Below, piece by piece: positions 5,391 to 15,425 of a stretch of 18,037 nucleotides of DNA. The position numbers and the translations under genes are program-made. The notes beneath the pieces were generated by a model. It saw nothing but the letters and a program-made list of their open reading frames with translations. It was not told the DNA's origin and did no database searches. This stretch comes from Candidatus Vogelbacteria bacterium CG22_combo_CG10-13_8_21_14_all_37_9 (lineage in GTDB: Bacteria > Patescibacteriota > Minisyncoccia > Phycocordibacterales > XYD1-FULL-46-19): positions 5,435-23,471 of the forward strand of contig PCSX01000023.1 of assembly GCA_002772495.1 (NCBI GenBank), in the 5' to 3' direction. The first letter of the stretch is position 1, and every line of letters starts with the position of its first letter.

Positions 5391-7166
5391 CTATTCTAAA
5401 ATTGCTTTAATCCGGCGGACACCAGCTGATATCGCTTCTTCTTTAATAATTTTAAAATGACCTAGCTCGCCAGTATTAGTAACATGAGGACCGCCACAAA
5501 ATTCTTTCGAATAAGCCGAGGCTAAATCCGAACCAATAAAATAAACCGACACCTCGTCACCATATTTTTCCGAAAAAAGATGATGCGCCCCAGATTGCTC
5601 CGCTTCGGCTTTTGGTAAAATGACTTGTTGAACTGACAAACTAGCTTGAATTTTTTCATTGACAATCTTTTCTACCGCTTGTTTTTGTTCGTCGTTTAGT
5701 TTGGCTGAATAGGCAAAATCGAAGCGTAGGCGCTCATCAGTGATATTGCTCCCCTTTTGGACTACTTCTGGGCCTAAGACATCTCGGAGGGCCTGATGAA
5801 GCAAATGGGTAGCGGTATGATAACGGATAATTTGTTCACTATTACCACCCAAACCACCTTTAAACTTTTGGTCAGAACCAGCTTTAGATAGTTCTTGGTG
5901 AGATTTCATAGCTAAATCAAAACCCTTAATATCGACAGTGATATTTTTTTCCCGGGCTAAATCTATAATAATATCAATCGGTAGACCATAAGAAGAATAG
6001 AGGGCAAAAGCTTCTGGGGCCGAAAGAGATTTTTTTCCTTTAATATTTTTTTCAAACTCAGTCAAACCTTTTTCTAAAGCACTACGGAATTTTTCTTTTT
6101 CACTTGTAAATACTGTAATAATTTTTTCTTCGTTAGTTTTTAATTCAATATAAAAATCGCTATACTGAATGATAATTTGTTTAATTAAATCAACCAAAAA
6201 ATCTGCCGGTAAAACTAATTGATCGGCAAAGCGAATGGCTCGACGAAGTAAACGACGTAAAATATAACCGCGATCAGTATTGGCAGGTAGTACCCCATCC
6301 GCCATCATAAAAACTCCCGCTCGCAAATGATCGACAATTATTCGCTCGGCTTTTTGATCTGAAACCTTGGCTTGACTTTGGATACTAGAAATTAAAGTTG
6401 AAAATAAATCTGTTTCGTAAACATTAGTTTTCTTTTGTAGAACCATCGCTAAGCGTTCGAGACCAGCACCCGTATCAACATTTTTTTGGGTCAGTTTACC
6501 AATCACTAGTCCGTCTTTCTTTTCATATTCCATGAAAACATCATTCCAAATTTCTACCACTTCCCGACGAGTATCGGCTACTAAAAATTCGGCTAGTGAT
6601 AAATCACCCAAACCTTTTTCGGTCACATCATAAAACATTTCCGTATCTGGGCCACAAGGACCATTGGCTCCCGGACTCCACCAATTATTTTCAGCTGGTA
6701 GAGCATAAATTCGATGGGCTGGAACACCGATCGATTGCCAGATCTGCTTTGATTCTTCATCTAGGGGCGAATTATCATCACCAGCAAAAATCGTCACATA
6801 CAATCGCTTTGGATCAAGACCAAAACCTTCTTCCTTACTGATCAATAATTCATAGCTCCATTTAATCGCCTCTTCCTTGAAATAGTCTCCGAGCGACCAA
6901 TTACCCAGCATCTGGAAAAAAGTGAGGTGGGTATTGTCACTAATATCATCAATATCAGTGGTCCGGACGCATTTTTGGACATCCACTAATCGCGTTCCAG
7001 CCGGATGAATTTGACCCAAAAGATAAGGTCCTAGGGGTTGCATTCCAGCCGTAATAAACAAGACCGATGGATCATTTTCCGGGATTAAGGAAGCCGAGGG
7101 AATAATCGTATGGCCTCGAGCAGTAAAAAATTTTAGAAACCGATCACGAATTTCATTAGAATTCAT
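5391..7166 (-). CDS. alaS: Alanyl-tRNA synthetase, short form lacking the C-Ala domain
   Basis: Class II synthetase that charges tRNA-Ala and hydrolyses mischarged tRNA. The catalytic domain is complete: motif-2 region VDVQKCVRTTDIDDISDNTH (62-80), FFQMLGNWSLGDYFK (83-97), NGPCGPDTEMFYD (168-180) and DTGAGLERLAM (231-241). The tRNA-recognition region follows, then an editing domain from about 445 with the metal ligands H450 and H454 (HTATH) and C557 and H561 (CGGPH). The protein stops at GVRRIKAILE, the end of the editing domain. At 591 residues it is far shorter than the roughly 875 of standard bacterial AlaRS, and the C-Ala oligomerisation/tRNA-binding domain is absent. The clean end suggests a natural short form, not a frameshift. 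It is the last gene of a run starting at 11149 and lies 19 nt after mnmA. Confidence 0.96.
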   Translation of the reverse strand: MNSNEIRDRFLKFFTARGHTIIPSASLIPENDPSVLFITAGMQPLGPYLLGQIHPAGTRLVDVQKCVRTTDIDDISDNTHLTFFQMLGNWSLGDYFKEEAIKWSYELLISKEEGFGLDPKRLYVTIFAGDDNSPLDEESKQIWQSIGVPAHRIYALPAENNWWSPGANGPCGPDTEMFYDVTEKGLGDLSLAEFLVADTRREVVEIWNDVFMEYEKKDGLVIGKLTQKNVDTGAGLERLAMVLQKKTNVYETDLFSTLISSIQSQAKVSDQKAERIIVDHLRAGVFMMADGVLPANTDRGYILRRLLRRAIRFADQLVLPADFLVDLIKQIIIQYSDFYIELKTNEEKIITVFTSEKEKFRSALEKGLTEFEKNIKGKKSLSAPEAFALYSSYGLPIDIIIDLAREKNITVDIKGFDLAMKSHQELSKAGSDQKFKGGLGGNSEQIIRYHTATHLLHQALRDVLGPEVVQKGSNITDERLRFDFAYSAKLNDEQKQAVEKIVNEKIQASLSVQQVILPKAEAEQSGAHHLFSEKYGDEVSVYFIGSDLASAYSKEFCGGPHVTNTGELGHFKIIKEEAISAGVRRIKAILE

Positions 7167-7185: not shown

Positions 7186-8376
7186 TTAACTTATTACTCC
7201 TCCACCGACAACCAGTTCATTATCATACACCACCACCGATTGGCCTAAGGCTGGAGAAGTAACTGGAGTTAAAAATTTTAAGTCCCAATCATTATTTTTA
7301 TTTTTTTGTAATTGACAGGGGCTTAAGGGAGCGCGATAACGCAAGCGAGCTTGGTAAATTTTAGCTTGAGTTGGTTCAAAAAACCAATTAGTATTTTTTA
7401 ATTTAAGAATTTCTGTTGCTATTGGATTACCGATTGTTTTTACTTCATGAGCGACAGTCAAAGTATTAGCCAAGCTATCTTTGGCAATAATATACCAAGC
7501 TTCGCCACTTCGATCGTCACTAGTAATAGTAAAGCTATGTCTCTCCCCAATAGTATAAAAATGGGTACCTAGATGTTGACCAATAGTCTCACCAGCTGAA
7601 TTTAAAACTGAACCCGGTTTTTCACCCAACTCTTCTTTTAAAAATTCTTTAAAATCAAAATCACCAACAAAACAAAGACCCTGACTATCTTTCTTGTCCG
7701 CGTTGGGTAATTGATATTTTTTAGCCAGCTGTCTGACTGCGGTTTTAGTCAAATGGCCAATGGGAAATAAAATTTTTGCTAATAAATCTGGTTTAATCGC
7801 CCACAAAAAATATGATTGATCTTTATTACTATCAACAGCAGTAGCTAAAACTGGTTGTTGATCAACTCCAAACAAGTTTAAAAACCCAGACCCATGCCCA
7901 ACCATTTTTAAACTTGTCTGGAGTTGATTCTCATTTTTAATTTTTAATTTTAAATTTTTAATTTGACAGTAGTGTCCAGTGGCCACAAAATCCGCTCCCA
8001 ATTCAAAAGCTTTATCCGCAAAAGCCCCAAATTTAATTTTTTGATTACAAACGACATCCGGATTGGGTGTTCGACCGACTTGATATTCAGCCAACAAATA
8101 GTCAATCACCGCTTGTTTGTATTCAGCCGACAAATCTAAAGTATAGAGAGGGATATCCAAAGTCGCTGCTACCGCAAAAGCCGAACGACGTTCAACACGC
8201 CATGAACAAAGTCGCCCGCGCGCTTTACCTTGAGCCGATTCAGACGGATCCCAAACTTTAATAAACACTCCAATGACATTGTAACCCGCCTGTTTCAGGA
8301 GAAGGGCCGAAACCGCCGAGTCTACTCCACCAGAGAGACCAACGAAAACTGTGTTATTTTTTTTCTCTTTCACCAT
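7186..8376 (-). CDS. mnmA: tRNA-specific 2-thiouridylase MnmA, with an in-frame insertion
   Basis: Makes 2-thiouridine at tRNA wobble position 34 (Lys, Glu, Gln tRNAs), using ATP and a sulfur carrier. The PP-loop SGGVDS is at residues 15-20 and the active-site regions NPDVVCNQKIKFG (D107, C110) and DSQGLCFVGDF (C235) are intact, so the enzyme should work. Between ATGHY and DSNKDQSYFL there are about 45 residues where the E. coli enzyme has about 16; the extra part is encoded by a palindromic element (7861-7928) and an adjacent A/T tract. I chose ATG 8374-8376 because GGGG lies just upstream. A TTG at 8383-8385 would add three residues but has no ribosome-binding site. It follows the exonuclease gene by 10 nt. 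Confidence 0.95.
   Translation of the reverse strand: MVKEKKNNTVFVGLSGGVDSAVSALLLKQAGYNVIGVFIKVWDPSESAQGKARGRLCSWRVERRSAFAVAATLDIPLYTLDLSAEYKQAVIDYLLAEYQVGRTPNPDVVCNQKIKFGAFADKAFELGADFVATGHYCQIKNLKLKIKNENQLQTSLKMVGHGSGFLNLFGVDQQPVLATAVDSNKDQSYFLWAIKPDLLAKILFPIGHLTKTAVRQLAKKYQLPNADKKDSQGLCFVGDFDFKEFLKEELGEKPGSVLNSAGETIGQHLGTHFYTIGERHSFTITSDDRSGEAWYIIAKDSLANTLTVAHEVKTIGNPIATEILKLKNTNWFFEPTQAKIYQARLRYRAPLSPCQLQKNKNNDWDLKFLTPVTSPALGQSVVVYDNELVVGGGVIS
7861..7928 (-). repeat. Palindromic element inserted in frame within mnmA
   Basis: Two 24-nt arms, 7861-7884 and 7905-7928, are reverse complements with a single mismatch, separated by a 20-nt G-rich loop (minus strand TGGTTGGGCATGGGTCTGGG). The element reads through in the mnmA frame as about 23 residues (NQLQTSLKMVGHGSG followed by FLNLFGVD). 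It lies exactly where MnmA is longer than its relatives. An A/T tract (7929-7965) flanks it. This is the architecture of the palindromic elements known to insert in reading frames in Rickettsia. No second copy is in this window. Confidence 0.8.
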
Positions 8377-8386
8377 AAACCCCAAT

Positions 8387-12314: not shown

Positions 12315-15300
12315 TTAAGCCAAAACTAGATTCAATAACTTGTCTGGTACATAAACCATTCTACTGATTTTTTGATCCTTTGTCCACTGGATAATAATCG
12401 GCCGAAGTAGAGCCAATTTTTTAATTTCTGCTTCACTTGTCCCCACCTCAACTTGGAAACTATCTCGAACCTTACCATTAATCTGGATAATAATTTTGAA
12501 AGAATTTATCTTAATTTTACTTGGCTCAAAAATCGGCCAAGTGGCTAGATGAATTGAACGTTTTTCGCCTAAATTAGACCACAATTCTTCAGTTAAATGT
12601 GGTGCTAGAGGAGCCAGTAACTTCAAAAAATCTTTAAATAAACTCCTGGAAATTGTTTCTGCTAATTCTAAATTATTAGCCATAATCATCAAAGTAGAAA
12701 CAGCAGTATTGAAAGAAAAATTTTCAATATCCTGACTGACTTTCTGAATTGTTTTTTGCTGGAGTGATTCTAAATCACTAGCAATCTTAATATCAGTCTT
12801 AGAAACTTTAAATGATAGACGCCAAACTCGATCAAGAAAACGTCTCACCCCCATCAAGTTATCACTATTCCAATTTTTGGATTGCTCAAACGGTCCCATA
12901 AACATTTCATATAAACGCAGAGAATCAGCCCCGTAATCTCGAACGACGTCATCAGGATTAATGACATTAGACCAACGTTTACTCATCTTTCGTCCATCTG
13001 GTCCCAGAACTAAACCTTGATTCTTTAATTGCGAAAAAGGTTCAGATCCGGGAGCAATTTTTAAATCAAATAAAAACTTATGCCAAAAACGAGCATAAAT
13101 TAAATGCCGAGTAGCATGTTCCACTCCTCCCACATACATCGATACCCCACCGATATTTGCCTGAGACAAATTTCGAAGGGGCGAGCCGGCACCAAGCCAC
13201 GCTTGAAGTTTTTTAGGATCGGCTAAAAATTTTTTATTAGTCGGATCAATAAAACGTAAATAATACCAAGATGAACCAGCCCATTGAGGCATCGTATTGG
13301 TTTCGCGTTTCGCCCAAGCTCCACAAACAGGACACTTAACCCTGACCCAATTAGTAATATCAGCTAAAGGTGATTCACCAGTTCCAGTCGGCGCGTAGCT
13401 TTTCACCACTGGTAATTTTACTGGTAAATCTTTTTCCGGCACTGGAACAATTCCCCGTCCAACTGGATTATTTAAAACACAGTTTGCACAATGAATAATC
13501 GGAATCGGTTCGCCCCAATAACGTTGGCGCGAAAAAACCCAATCGCGTAATTTATATTTAGTTACTAAATGCCCCCGAACAAATTTAGTAATCGCAATTT
13601 TAGCTTTCTGATTACTTAAACCACTAAAATTATCAGAATTAACTAAAATTCCTTCACCGACATAAGCTTGCTCTAAAACATCCTCTACTATTTGAGAACT
13701 CTTATCGGTTAATTTTTGCCGATCCCAAATTACTAATTTAATTGGTAGTTTAAATTTTTTAGCAAAGACCCAATCTCGCTGATCATGAGCTGGCACCGCC
13801 ATGATGGCCCCAAAACCATAATCAACTAAAACATAGTCAGCGATATAAATTGGAATAATTTCTCCATTAGCGGGATTAATCGCTTCTAGACCTTCAATCT
13901 TAACGCCGGTTTTATCTCGACCTTCAGCTGTTCGTTCAATTTCAGTTCGTTTTTTAGTTTTAGTAAGATAATTTTTGATCGCTGGTAAATTTTTAATTTT
14001 TTTCGATGGCTGACGGATTAAATTTTGAATAATTTGATGTTCTGGAGCTAAAACTAAATAAGTCGCTCCAAATAAAGTATCTGGCCGAGTGGTGAAAATT
14101 TTTATTTTTTCTAAACAATGTTCCAAAACTACTGGTTCCACCTTGCCACAAACATGAGCTTTTTCCGCTTCAAATTCAATTAAGTCCCCACCTAATTCTT
14201 GTTGGATTCTCAGACCTTGATTATCAGCGATCAGTGGATCTTTCAGATCTCGTAGAATTTTGACCCAACCAGCATTTTTCTTAATTTTAGGCCAAGTAAA
14301 ACGCCAATTAAATATCAGTCGGAGAGGCCATGACTCACGATTTTTAACTGCTGGCTCAATTAAACCCGCAACTAAAATGGTTCCGGCAATCGGGGTTTTT
14401 AATTTTTCTAAAATTTTTAAAGCTACGACTGCTCCCCAACTGTGCCCCACTAAAATAGTGTCTGGTCCAAATTTCACTTGTTTTAGAACTGCTTCTATTT
14501 GATTAGCAATATTGGGAATTCGAGCATCAGGCAGATCAAGGGCTTGAACACTATGACCTTTGGCTTCTAATTCTCGTTTAAGCCACGGGAAAAAAGAGCG
14601 CTTAGAATTAGAGGCGAAACCCGGCAATAAAACATAGTGCCGTTTGTTAGCTAGAGGAAAATCAATTTCTGCCCCTTCACTTTTACCAATCCAATTTCGT
14701 TGAGCTTCTTTAACTGATTCTGGCCACTTTAATTGATCTAAGTCAGTCAAAAGTCGTTCGGCGTAATTTGTAATTTTAAGTACCCACTGTCGCATAGGTT
14801 TTTTTTCAACCACTGTGCCACAGCGTTCACACTTTCCGTCTTCCAAATCTTCATTTGCTAAACCAGTCTGACAAGAAGGACACCAATTGATCGGTTCATA
14901 AGATTCATAAGCTAAACCTTGTTTATAAAGTTGGAGAAAAATCCACTGGGTCCAACGATAATAATCCGGATTAGTGGTATTAATTTCTCGAGACCAATCA
15001 TAAGATAGACCAATCGATTTAATTTGTCGGCGGAAATTATCAATATTTTTTTTAGTCGAAACGGCTGGATTAACTTTATGCTTAAGCGCGAAATTTTCCG
15101 CTGGCAAGCCAAAAGCATCCCATCCCATCGGATGAAGAACATTGTTTCCTGTCATTCTCAAATAACGACTATAGATATCTGTCGCGGTATAGCCTAAAAT
15201 ATGCCCGACATGCAGGCCTTCTCCCGAAGGGTACGGAAACATATCTAAAACGTAGGCCTTAGGTTTAGAAGATTTATCGTTGGTTTGATAAATTTTTTTC

Positions 15301-15425
15301 TCAGCCCAAACTTTCTGCCATTTAGTTTCTATTTTTTGATGCGGATAATTCTGACCAGCTAGTTTTGTAGCCGGAGAAATTTTAGCAGTTTTAATTTTAG
15401 TTTTAGAAATTTTAACTTTAGACAT
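12315..15425 (-). CDS. leuS: Leucyl-tRNA synthetase with an inserted RBBP9-like serine hydrolase domain
   Basis: Class I synthetase that charges tRNA-Leu. 1036 residues against the usual 800-880. All standard parts are there: PYPSGEGLHVGH (64-75, HIGH motif); zinc-type cysteines C182, C185, C199, C202; editing domain with FTTRPDTLFGATY (444-456) and AVPAHDQRD (543-551); a second cysteine set C646, C649, C698, C701; KMSKR (813-817) in place of KMSKS; and the C-terminal domain beginning near IIIQINGKVRDSF. Between GAEIDFPLANK and KIKIFTTRPDT, about residues 261-439, a foreign domain is inserted. It begins RHYVLLPGFASNSKRSFFPW, carries the nucleophile elbow GHSWG (S329), and has a candidate acid D396 and base H424. 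Order and spacing match RBBP9/YdeN-type alpha/beta hydrolases. The frame is unbroken. It lies 14 nt after the four-helix membrane protein gene. Confidence 0.96.
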   Translation of the reverse strand: MSKVKISKTKIKTAKISPATKLAGQNYPHQKIETKWQKVWAEKKIYQTNDKSSKPKAYVLDMFPYPSGEGLHVGHILGYTATDIYSRYLRMTGNNVLHPMGWDAFGLPAENFALKHKVNPAVSTKKNIDNFRRQIKSIGLSYDWSREINTTNPDYYRWTQWIFLQLYKQGLAYESYEPINWCPSCQTGLANEDLEDGKCERCGTVVEKKPMRQWVLKITNYAERLLTDLDQLKWPESVKEAQRNWIGKSEGAEIDFPLANKRHYVLLPGFASNSKRSFFPWLKRELEAKGHSVQALDLPDARIPNIANQIEAVLKQVKFGPDTILVGHSWGAVVALKILEKLKTPIAGTILVAGLIEPAVKNRESWPLRLIFNWRFTWPKIKKNAGWVKILRDLKDPLIADNQGLRIQQELGGDLIEFEAEKAHVCGKVEPVVLEHCLEKIKIFTTRPDTLFGATYLVLAPEHQIIQNLIRQPSKKIKNLPAIKNYLTKTKKRTEIERTAEGRDKTGVKIEGLEAINPANGEIIPIYIADYVLVDYGFGAIMAVPAHDQRDWVFAKKFKLPIKLVIWDRQKLTDKSSQIVEDVLEQAYVGEGILVNSDNFSGLSNQKAKIAITKFVRGHLVTKYKLRDWVFSRQRYWGEPIPIIHCANCVLNNPVGRGIVPVPEKDLPVKLPVVKSYAPTGTGESPLADITNWVRVKCPVCGAWAKRETNTMPQWAGSSWYYLRFIDPTNKKFLADPKKLQAWLGAGSPLRNLSQANIGGVSMYVGGVEHATRHLIYARFWHKFLFDLKIAPGSEPFSQLKNQGLVLGPDGRKMSKRWSNVINPDDVVRDYGADSLRLYEMFMGPFEQSKNWNSDNLMGVRRFLDRVWRLSFKVSKTDIKIASDLESLQQKTIQKVSQDIENFSFNTAVSTLMIMANNLELAETISRSLFKDFLKLLAPLAPHLTEELWSNLGEKRSIHLATWPIFEPSKIKINSFKIIIQINGKVRDSFQVEVGTSEAEIKKLALLRPIIIQWTKDQKISRMVYVPDKLLNLVLA
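14110..14645 (-). other. Inserted RBBP9/YdeN-like alpha/beta hydrolase domain within leuS
   Basis: Codons for LeuRS residues 261-439. About 179 residues, the length of a whole stand-alone RBBP9-family protein. It has an oxyanion-type LLPGF at the first strand, FFPWLKRELEAKGHSVQALD as in the family, DTILVGHSWGAVVALKILE around the nucleophile S329, TILVAGL on the next strand, D396 in LKDPLI and H424 in EKAHVCG. All three triad positions are filled, so it may be active. Its substrate is unknown. Confidence 0.85.

Follow-up and report, generated by a model that had tools for sequence, protein, structure and literature searches.

The familiar insertion of class Ia aminoacyl-tRNA synthetases is a single editing domain. 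On the host side, the closest described system is bacterial leucyl-tRNA synthetase (LeuRS) with its CP1 editing domain (TIGR00396, PF13603). The model ileS_w_GNAT (NF040702), compared here by its name alone, also joins a class Ia synthetase, an isoleucyl-tRNA synthetase (IleRS), to an extra enzyme domain, which is however another enzyme, an N-acetyltransferase. Lineage-specific insertional domains of RNA polymerase have, going by the title of their description, entered an essential enzyme polyphyletically (PMC11515920); the host differs, and the guests described below are known catalytic families in synthetases. On the guest side, the closest system is the RBBP9/YdeN family of serine hydrolases (PF06821). 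Human RBBP9 was shown to hydrolyse aminoacyl groups as a serine aminopeptidase, for which the substrate must have a free α-amine; in cells, the amino acids captured by its Ser75Dap trap were Leu/Ile, Met, Phe, Tyr and Trp, and aromatic residues are preferred in vitro (PMC8866121).

In this study, we analysed a stretch of 18,037 nucleotides, hereafter the window, from Candidatus Vogelbacteria bacterium CG22_combo_CG10-13_8_21_14_all_37_9 (GCA_002772495.1, contig PCSX01000023.1, positions 5,435-23,471). Its LeuRS resembles other bacterial LeuRS in its intact charging and editing motifs, but it has a second hydrolase domain inside CP1. By profile, size, motif order and Ser-Asp-His triad this domain belongs to the RBBP9/YdeN family, from which it differs in being embedded in LeuRS and not free. 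Our literature search, which covered titles and abstract starts and had most subscription papers outside its coverage, returned no description of a serine hydrolase or NUDIX domain inserted in LeuRS, in line with the sequence-only reading, which had known of no synthetase-hydrolase fusion of this kind. Some of these proteins are entered in databases as leucine--tRNA ligase or as alpha/beta fold hydrolase; annotation thus reveals the architecture, which is, as far as we have seen, undescribed.

An RBBP9/YdeN-type domain within CP1 of LeuRS

The LeuRS gene (12315..15425, minus strand) is one continuous open frame of 1036 amino acids that encloses the hydrolase domain. TIGR00396 (leuS_bact) matches the product with 967.8 bits (cut-off 548.4) in two stretches, the better of which covers residues 437-1035, and the charging and editing motifs HVGH, KMSKR, TTRPDT and HDQRD are all present in the translation. 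The sequence-only reading, which took LeuRS to be unbroken on both sides of the insert, was thus right. We place the hydrolase domain at 14106..14648 (minus strand, residues 260-440, about 180 residues); it is flanked by GAEIDF and KIFTTRPDT; its earlier limits, 14110-14645 (residues 261-439, about 179 residues), needed only slight revision. The distance from the W(I/L)GxS motif to F-TTR is 194 residues in the window, whereas among 40 measured insert-less loci it is 16-30 residues in 39 and 50 in one, so the domain is extra to LeuRS as had been claimed.

Taken alone (14105-14645), the insert matches the Pfam family Ser_hydrolase (PF06821), as had been expected, with 35.1 bits (cut-off 22), over profile positions 1-92 of 172 only, and Abhydrolase_6 with 35.6 bits (cut-off 26.3). 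Support for the second half comes from a profile built from nine inserts, the window's own among them. Against solved structures this profile matches YdeN (1uxo) with an E-value of 3.2e-25 over positions 8-164 of 185, and RBBP9 (2qs9) with 2.2e-18 over positions 5-170.

The insert lies in what we take to be the first hairpin of CP1, just ahead of the threonine-rich editing strand, judging by LeuRS anatomy and the sequence. The earlier placing within the editing domain thus stands, but "hinge" was imprecise, and the site is probably better called the first β-hairpin of CP1. The G+C content of the insert (0.398) is close to that of the remaining LeuRS (0.370). Because inserts with an open frame recur across many separate assemblies, an assembly or frame artefact is ruled out. 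The window therefore encodes a LeuRS with intact charging and editing motifs and, inside CP1, an RBBP9/YdeN-type domain whose predicted Ser-Asp-His triad is complete.

Two neighbouring genes, both on the minus strand, have features of their own. In the gene at 7186-8385, which we take to be MnmA-like, GHYC is followed by a lysine-rich stretch that is unusual (QIKNLKLKIKNENQLQTSLKMVGHGSG) and may be a further small insertion. The frame at 5391-7166, presumably AlaRS-like, has only 591 amino acids, which is short for a bacterial AlaRS.

Hosts, insertion sites and descent

A search with residues 240-460 found at least 1730 proteins with an E-value of 1e-3 or better among 8000 scored candidates. 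The 120 listed of these all carry LeuRS, and nearly all of them an alpha/beta-hydrolase family by Pfam. In the long frames that were read, with positions named from motifs, the hydrolase sits at four LeuRS positions: site A, the first CP1 hairpin and the window's site; site B, after the editing core; site C, after SRQRYWGxPIP in the zinc-knuckle region; and site D, about 20 residues before NWIG. The insert position in valyl-tRNA synthetase (ValRS) corresponds to LeuRS site C, and in two IleRS the insert is inside CP1. At least 20 ValRS with the hydrolase (P0131-P0150) were found in the protein database search. Three Gracilibacteria loci (L010, L011 and L012), translated with genetic code 25, have the hydrolase at LeuRS site D.

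Most long frames with a listed hydrolase match are synthetases. Among 285 genomes, 18 of the 19 such frames of at least 500 amino acids are synthetases (12 LeuRS, 4 ValRS and 2 IleRS), the exception being a hydrolase followed by a region that its sequence suggests is phospholipase-D-like. Among 379 genomes the figure is 34 of 35, all LeuRS; the exception, L195 (2208-5183), is a glycosyltransferase-like frame with the hydrolase in the middle. When both draws, each of which includes the window's genome, are merged, 51 of 53 listed long frames are, as a raw count, LeuRS, ValRS or IleRS. A frame of 24,995 amino acids in G642 was discarded as the product of a masked run of N, and locus L140 (genome G046) gave no hydrolase match when examined.

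In a tree of 143 hydrolase domains, in which 55 of the main lineage's LeuRS rows were used and the bootstrap was not fully settled, one clade (100/98) holds the 55 LeuRS domains and 4 nested ValRS domains, with no free protein inside. The rows of this main lineage comprise 169 from LeuRS site A, five from LeuRS site C and four from ValRS. In these data, the lineage is confined to patescibacterial synthetases, namely LeuRS, where it occupies two sites, and four ValRS proteins. The 42 free proteins of the main set group separately (80/100). A clade of their own (100/99) unites the remaining 20 ValRS rows; a pair of LeuRS site-C domains that are of a different type adjoins it (93/92). The two IleRS domains form another clade (100/100). 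Site-D domains group with L004 (100/98), and L126, L129 and L130 with one free protein (100/98). Since the starred branches of the tree force at least two changes of the free label, the hydrolase has been captured or released more than once.

Among 379 genomes drawn from the phylum, at least 29 have the main lineage inside a LeuRS frame; it sits at site A in 25 of them and at site C in 4. The insert is present in 4 of 16 genomes from the family to which the window belongs, and six others that were measured are insert-less, with hairpins of 19-24 residues. On a LeuRS tree of 159 rows, for which only every fourth P-numbered protein was used, 17 changes are required to explain the site-A insert, and shuffling gives 45.7 on average; the distribution of the insert is clustered yet patchy, and the 17 changes speak against a single vertical gain. 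Insert and backbone distances nevertheless correlate (r 0.38, permutation maximum 0.07). Taken together, these two results mean that inheritance of the insert is partly vertical, with losses or exchange.

We also compared genomes with and without the insert. A further hydrolase match is present in 11 of 29 genomes with it versus 176 of 350 without it, among matches listed that may include other synthetase inserts; there is no clear displacement that would let the insert be read as a replacement of the free hydrolase. The D-aminoacyl-tRNA deacylase DTD (PF02580) occurs in 42 of the 379 genomes and is absent from the window's genome. It is present in 3 of 29 main-lineage genomes (all site C, 0/25 at site A) and in 39 of 350 others, a weak contrast that is confounded by kinship.

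Active-site residues of the hydrolase and of CP1

The putative nucleophile Ser329 in GHSWG (codon 14439..14441), Asp396 (14238..14240) and His424 (14154..14156), all on the minus strand, fall in the columns of RBBP9 Ser75, Asp138 and His165, so that the triad proposed by the sequence-only reading is supported residue by residue. The check it proposed on relatives came out in favour of a conserved triad as well. In the alignment of the 120 proteins listed of the 1730, Ser is kept in 119, and Asp, His and a Glu six residues past the catalytic His (Glu430; codon 14136..14138, minus strand) in all 120. Pro268 (codon 14622..14624, minus strand) is replaced by His, in an HG motif, in 114 of the 120 relatives; RBBP9 also has Pro here.

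Column counts were also made over 169 LeuRS rows of the main lineage. The nucleophile is Ser in 168 rows, the acid is Asp in 155, Glu in 9 and Tyr, Phe or Cys in 5, and His is invariant. A complete set of Ser, Asp/Glu and His is present in 163 of 164 rows at site A and in none of five at site C; of the six that fall short, one is a site-A row lacking Ser, and the others are the five at site C, where the acid is missing. These five (L172, L176, L184, L185 and P0152) have Tyr, Phe or Cys in the acid column and keep Ser, His and Glu430, so catalysis may have been lost or rearranged there. The 169-row set, like a set of 174 LeuRS rows used below, contains repeated genes (160 and 164 distinct); among the 160 distinct rows, Ser is kept in 159, Asp/Glu in 155, and His and Glu430 in all 160. 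In the other captures, Ser, Asp and His are present in 24 of 24 ValRS rows; the minor groups from LeuRS and IleRS, with 16 rows between them, have Ser, Asp/Glu and His throughout.

Two further positions stand out. Every one of the 174 main-lineage rows that reside in LeuRS has Glu430, whichever of the two sites it comes from, whereas the four ValRS-resident rows all lack it. In free proteins this column is uncertain, with Glu in 10 and a gap in 19 of 48 in one alignment and Leu in 34 of 46 in another. Position 309 is Gln in 49 of 55 main-lineage rows, including the window, versus the family's Trp in 45 of 46 free rows. Glu430 and Gln309 point to specialisation after capture. The column of Glu108, the anchor of the α-amine in RBBP9, has Pro in the window and in 32 of 55 lineage rows and no conserved Glu, although the column is uncertain because the alignment length varies there. 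That Glu430 might stand in for Glu108 is speculation.

The CP1 editing site follows closely. TTRPDT of the editing pocket (residues 445-450, 14076..14093, minus strand) comes directly after the insert, and DQRD (residues 548-551, 13773..13784, minus strand) lies further on. Over the 169 rows, the conserved counts are 168 for T445, T446 and R447, 167 for D449, 169 for T450, 168 for D548, and 169 for R550 and D551. With editing residues kept in 167-169 of 169 rows at eight columns, the idea that the hydrolase substitutes for lost CP1 editing is ruled out for the main lineage. Since the editing and charging motifs are intact, the hydrolase domain would add a function. Two loci differ in this region. 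In L194 (859-4116), a different capture with the hydrolase at site D, TTRPDT is changed to HFEAFMADT and a loss of CP1 editing is possible, while the editing-domain profile still matches. In L176, a site-C member, the TTR..T pattern was not found.

Other guests of synthetases and the possible role of the hydrolase

We favour the reading in which the insert is an active accessory aminoacyl hydrolase that acts in cis beside leucine charging, and we hold it as a serious possibility that stops a little short of probable. Ser329 would attack the carbonyl of an amino acid with a free α-amine, an aminoacyl-enzyme would form, and water would resolve it. The substrates would be esters or amides that arise around leucine charging, such as mischarged or damaged aminoacyl-tRNA, aminoacyl adducts, and leucine esters or short peptides, and the domain would work in addition to CP1 editing, not instead of it. 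The aminoacyl ester of tRNA is an aminoacyl bond with a free α-amine. Since RBBP9 cleaves aminoacyl bonds of this kind, an accessory aminoacyl hydrolase is favoured. The nearly invariant triad at site A, the hosts that are nearly all synthetases, the synthetase-only clade and the tracking of the host by Glu430 support it indirectly, as does the chemistry of RBBP9. Against it stand the other enzymes at the same sites, the absent acid at site C, the lack of a conserved Glu108, the absence of the insert from most genomes, its patchy distribution and the two long frames that are not synthetases. The missing acid in the five site-C copies leaves the window's site untouched, and our judgement stands unaltered. 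The earlier proposal that the hydrolase acts on a substrate linked to charging thus gains indirect support, from the host set, one lineage at different sites, Glu430 and the activity of RBBP9.

The hydrolase is one of several enzymes housed in this way. Among the 23 listed hydrolase-free LeuRS frames above about 930 amino acids, 20 were read (G411, G415 and G494 were left out), and 16 of these have a NUDIX domain at site B (L198, L199, L201-L205 and L208-L216); L217 has no resolved insert, and the inserts of L200 and L207 are unnamed by Pfam. A regular expression found the NUDIX box in 8 of 10 extracted domains. In 192 genomes the NUDIX profile gave at least 25 frames above 100 bits, namely 20 LeuRS, one ValRS (L218, 1271-3919) and 4 that were not read; they form a distinct high-scoring group, the top free protein among the matches listed scoring 75. 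Insertion of NUDIX into CP1 of LeuRS is thus common in the phylum. NUDIX and the hydrolase occur together in 32 of 119 proteins. A weaker NUDIX match was seen at the end of a glycosyltransferase-like frame, L220 (2242-3948).

Pfam also places a methyltransferase (L206), HAD domains (L191, L219 and L221), Ham1 (L122 and L219, elsewhere in the chain than the hydrolase sites) and histidine phosphatases (ValRS L107 and IleRS L125) inside synthetases. One LeuRS frame of 1795 amino acids, L219 (3177-8561), has HAD, Ham1, NUDIX and a nucleotidyltransferase-like match. At the window's own insertion site, two Nomurabacteria loci (L008 and L041) have DUF559 by Pfam; the peptides on either side of it resemble repeats, TPTLPQEKGE in L041 being an example. 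In L024, L077 and L004 the same CP1 hairpin codes short repeat-like peptides (LTPSPSPLQGEGG, CHSEGAQATEESN and LDSRLRGNDN), which we take to be palindromic repeats. The picture of a single fusion, from which the sequence-only reading had started, was thus too narrow: further small enzymes, for which no connection to aminoacylation is evident, are housed in the synthetases of these bacteria.

These guests bear on the reading that comes next in probability, which we regard as quite possible. LeuRS, ValRS and IleRS of Patescibacteria would tolerate whole domains at a few sites, and the hydrolase would be an uncoupled house-cleaning enzyme that keeps its own job. The other guests, from NUDIX to DUF559, are the strongest argument that the synthetase hosts are merely tolerant; the bias of NUDIX to LeuRS and ValRS resembles that of the hydrolase, so that the choice of host may reflect host tolerance. 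The repeat-like peptides that fill the same hairpin in a few loci and the patchy distribution (17 changes on the LeuRS tree) point the same way. Tolerance alone accounts less well for one hydrolase lineage that sits at different synthetase sites and was never free among the rows examined, or for a residue, Glu430, that tracks the host. A plain fusion might also predict displacement of free copies, which is not clear here (11/29 versus 176/350).

A third reading, which we consider improbable, sees in the domain an aminopeptidase that supplies leucine by cutting it from peptides or esters near the site of synthesis, which would be useful to bacteria that import peptides. In its favour, the hosts are the three branched-chain synthetases, and RBBP9 is an aminopeptidase whose trap captured Leu/Ile; against it, RBBP9 prefers aromatic residues in vitro (PMC8866121), and any channelling would be conjecture. 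A fourth reading, which we consider very improbable, takes the domain for a folded spacer or a surface that handles tRNA, in which catalysis is no longer relevant. The 6 of 169 rows that lack part of the triad speak for it, but 163 of 164 rows at the window's site keep Ser, Asp/Glu and His.

The accessory aminoacyl hydrolase, favoured over these three readings, could be part of a wider pattern. LeuRS, ValRS and IleRS of Patescibacteria might carry a synthetase-specialised serine hydrolase as a further aminoacyl-hydrolysing centre, working by covalent catalysis alongside CP1 editing, and this would be one of several guests (NUDIX, Ham1, HAD and histidine phosphatase) that turn the synthetases into multi-enzyme sanitation platforms. 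We offer this wider proposal only tentatively and think it rather unlikely in its full extent.

In conclusion, CP1 of a LeuRS contains an additional hydrolase of a different fold whose active site is kept, and related hydrolases are found in three related synthetases. Should aminoacyl esters be its substrates, the domain would give a synthetase a proofreading or clean-up centre based on serine. Should they not be, essential synthetases of Patescibacteria are still shown to harbour small enzymes. In both cases, enzymes hidden inside synthetases escape the gene counts of these tiny genomes. The same or a similar arrangement in many related ultra-small bacteria points to an undescribed accessory activity beside protein synthesis.
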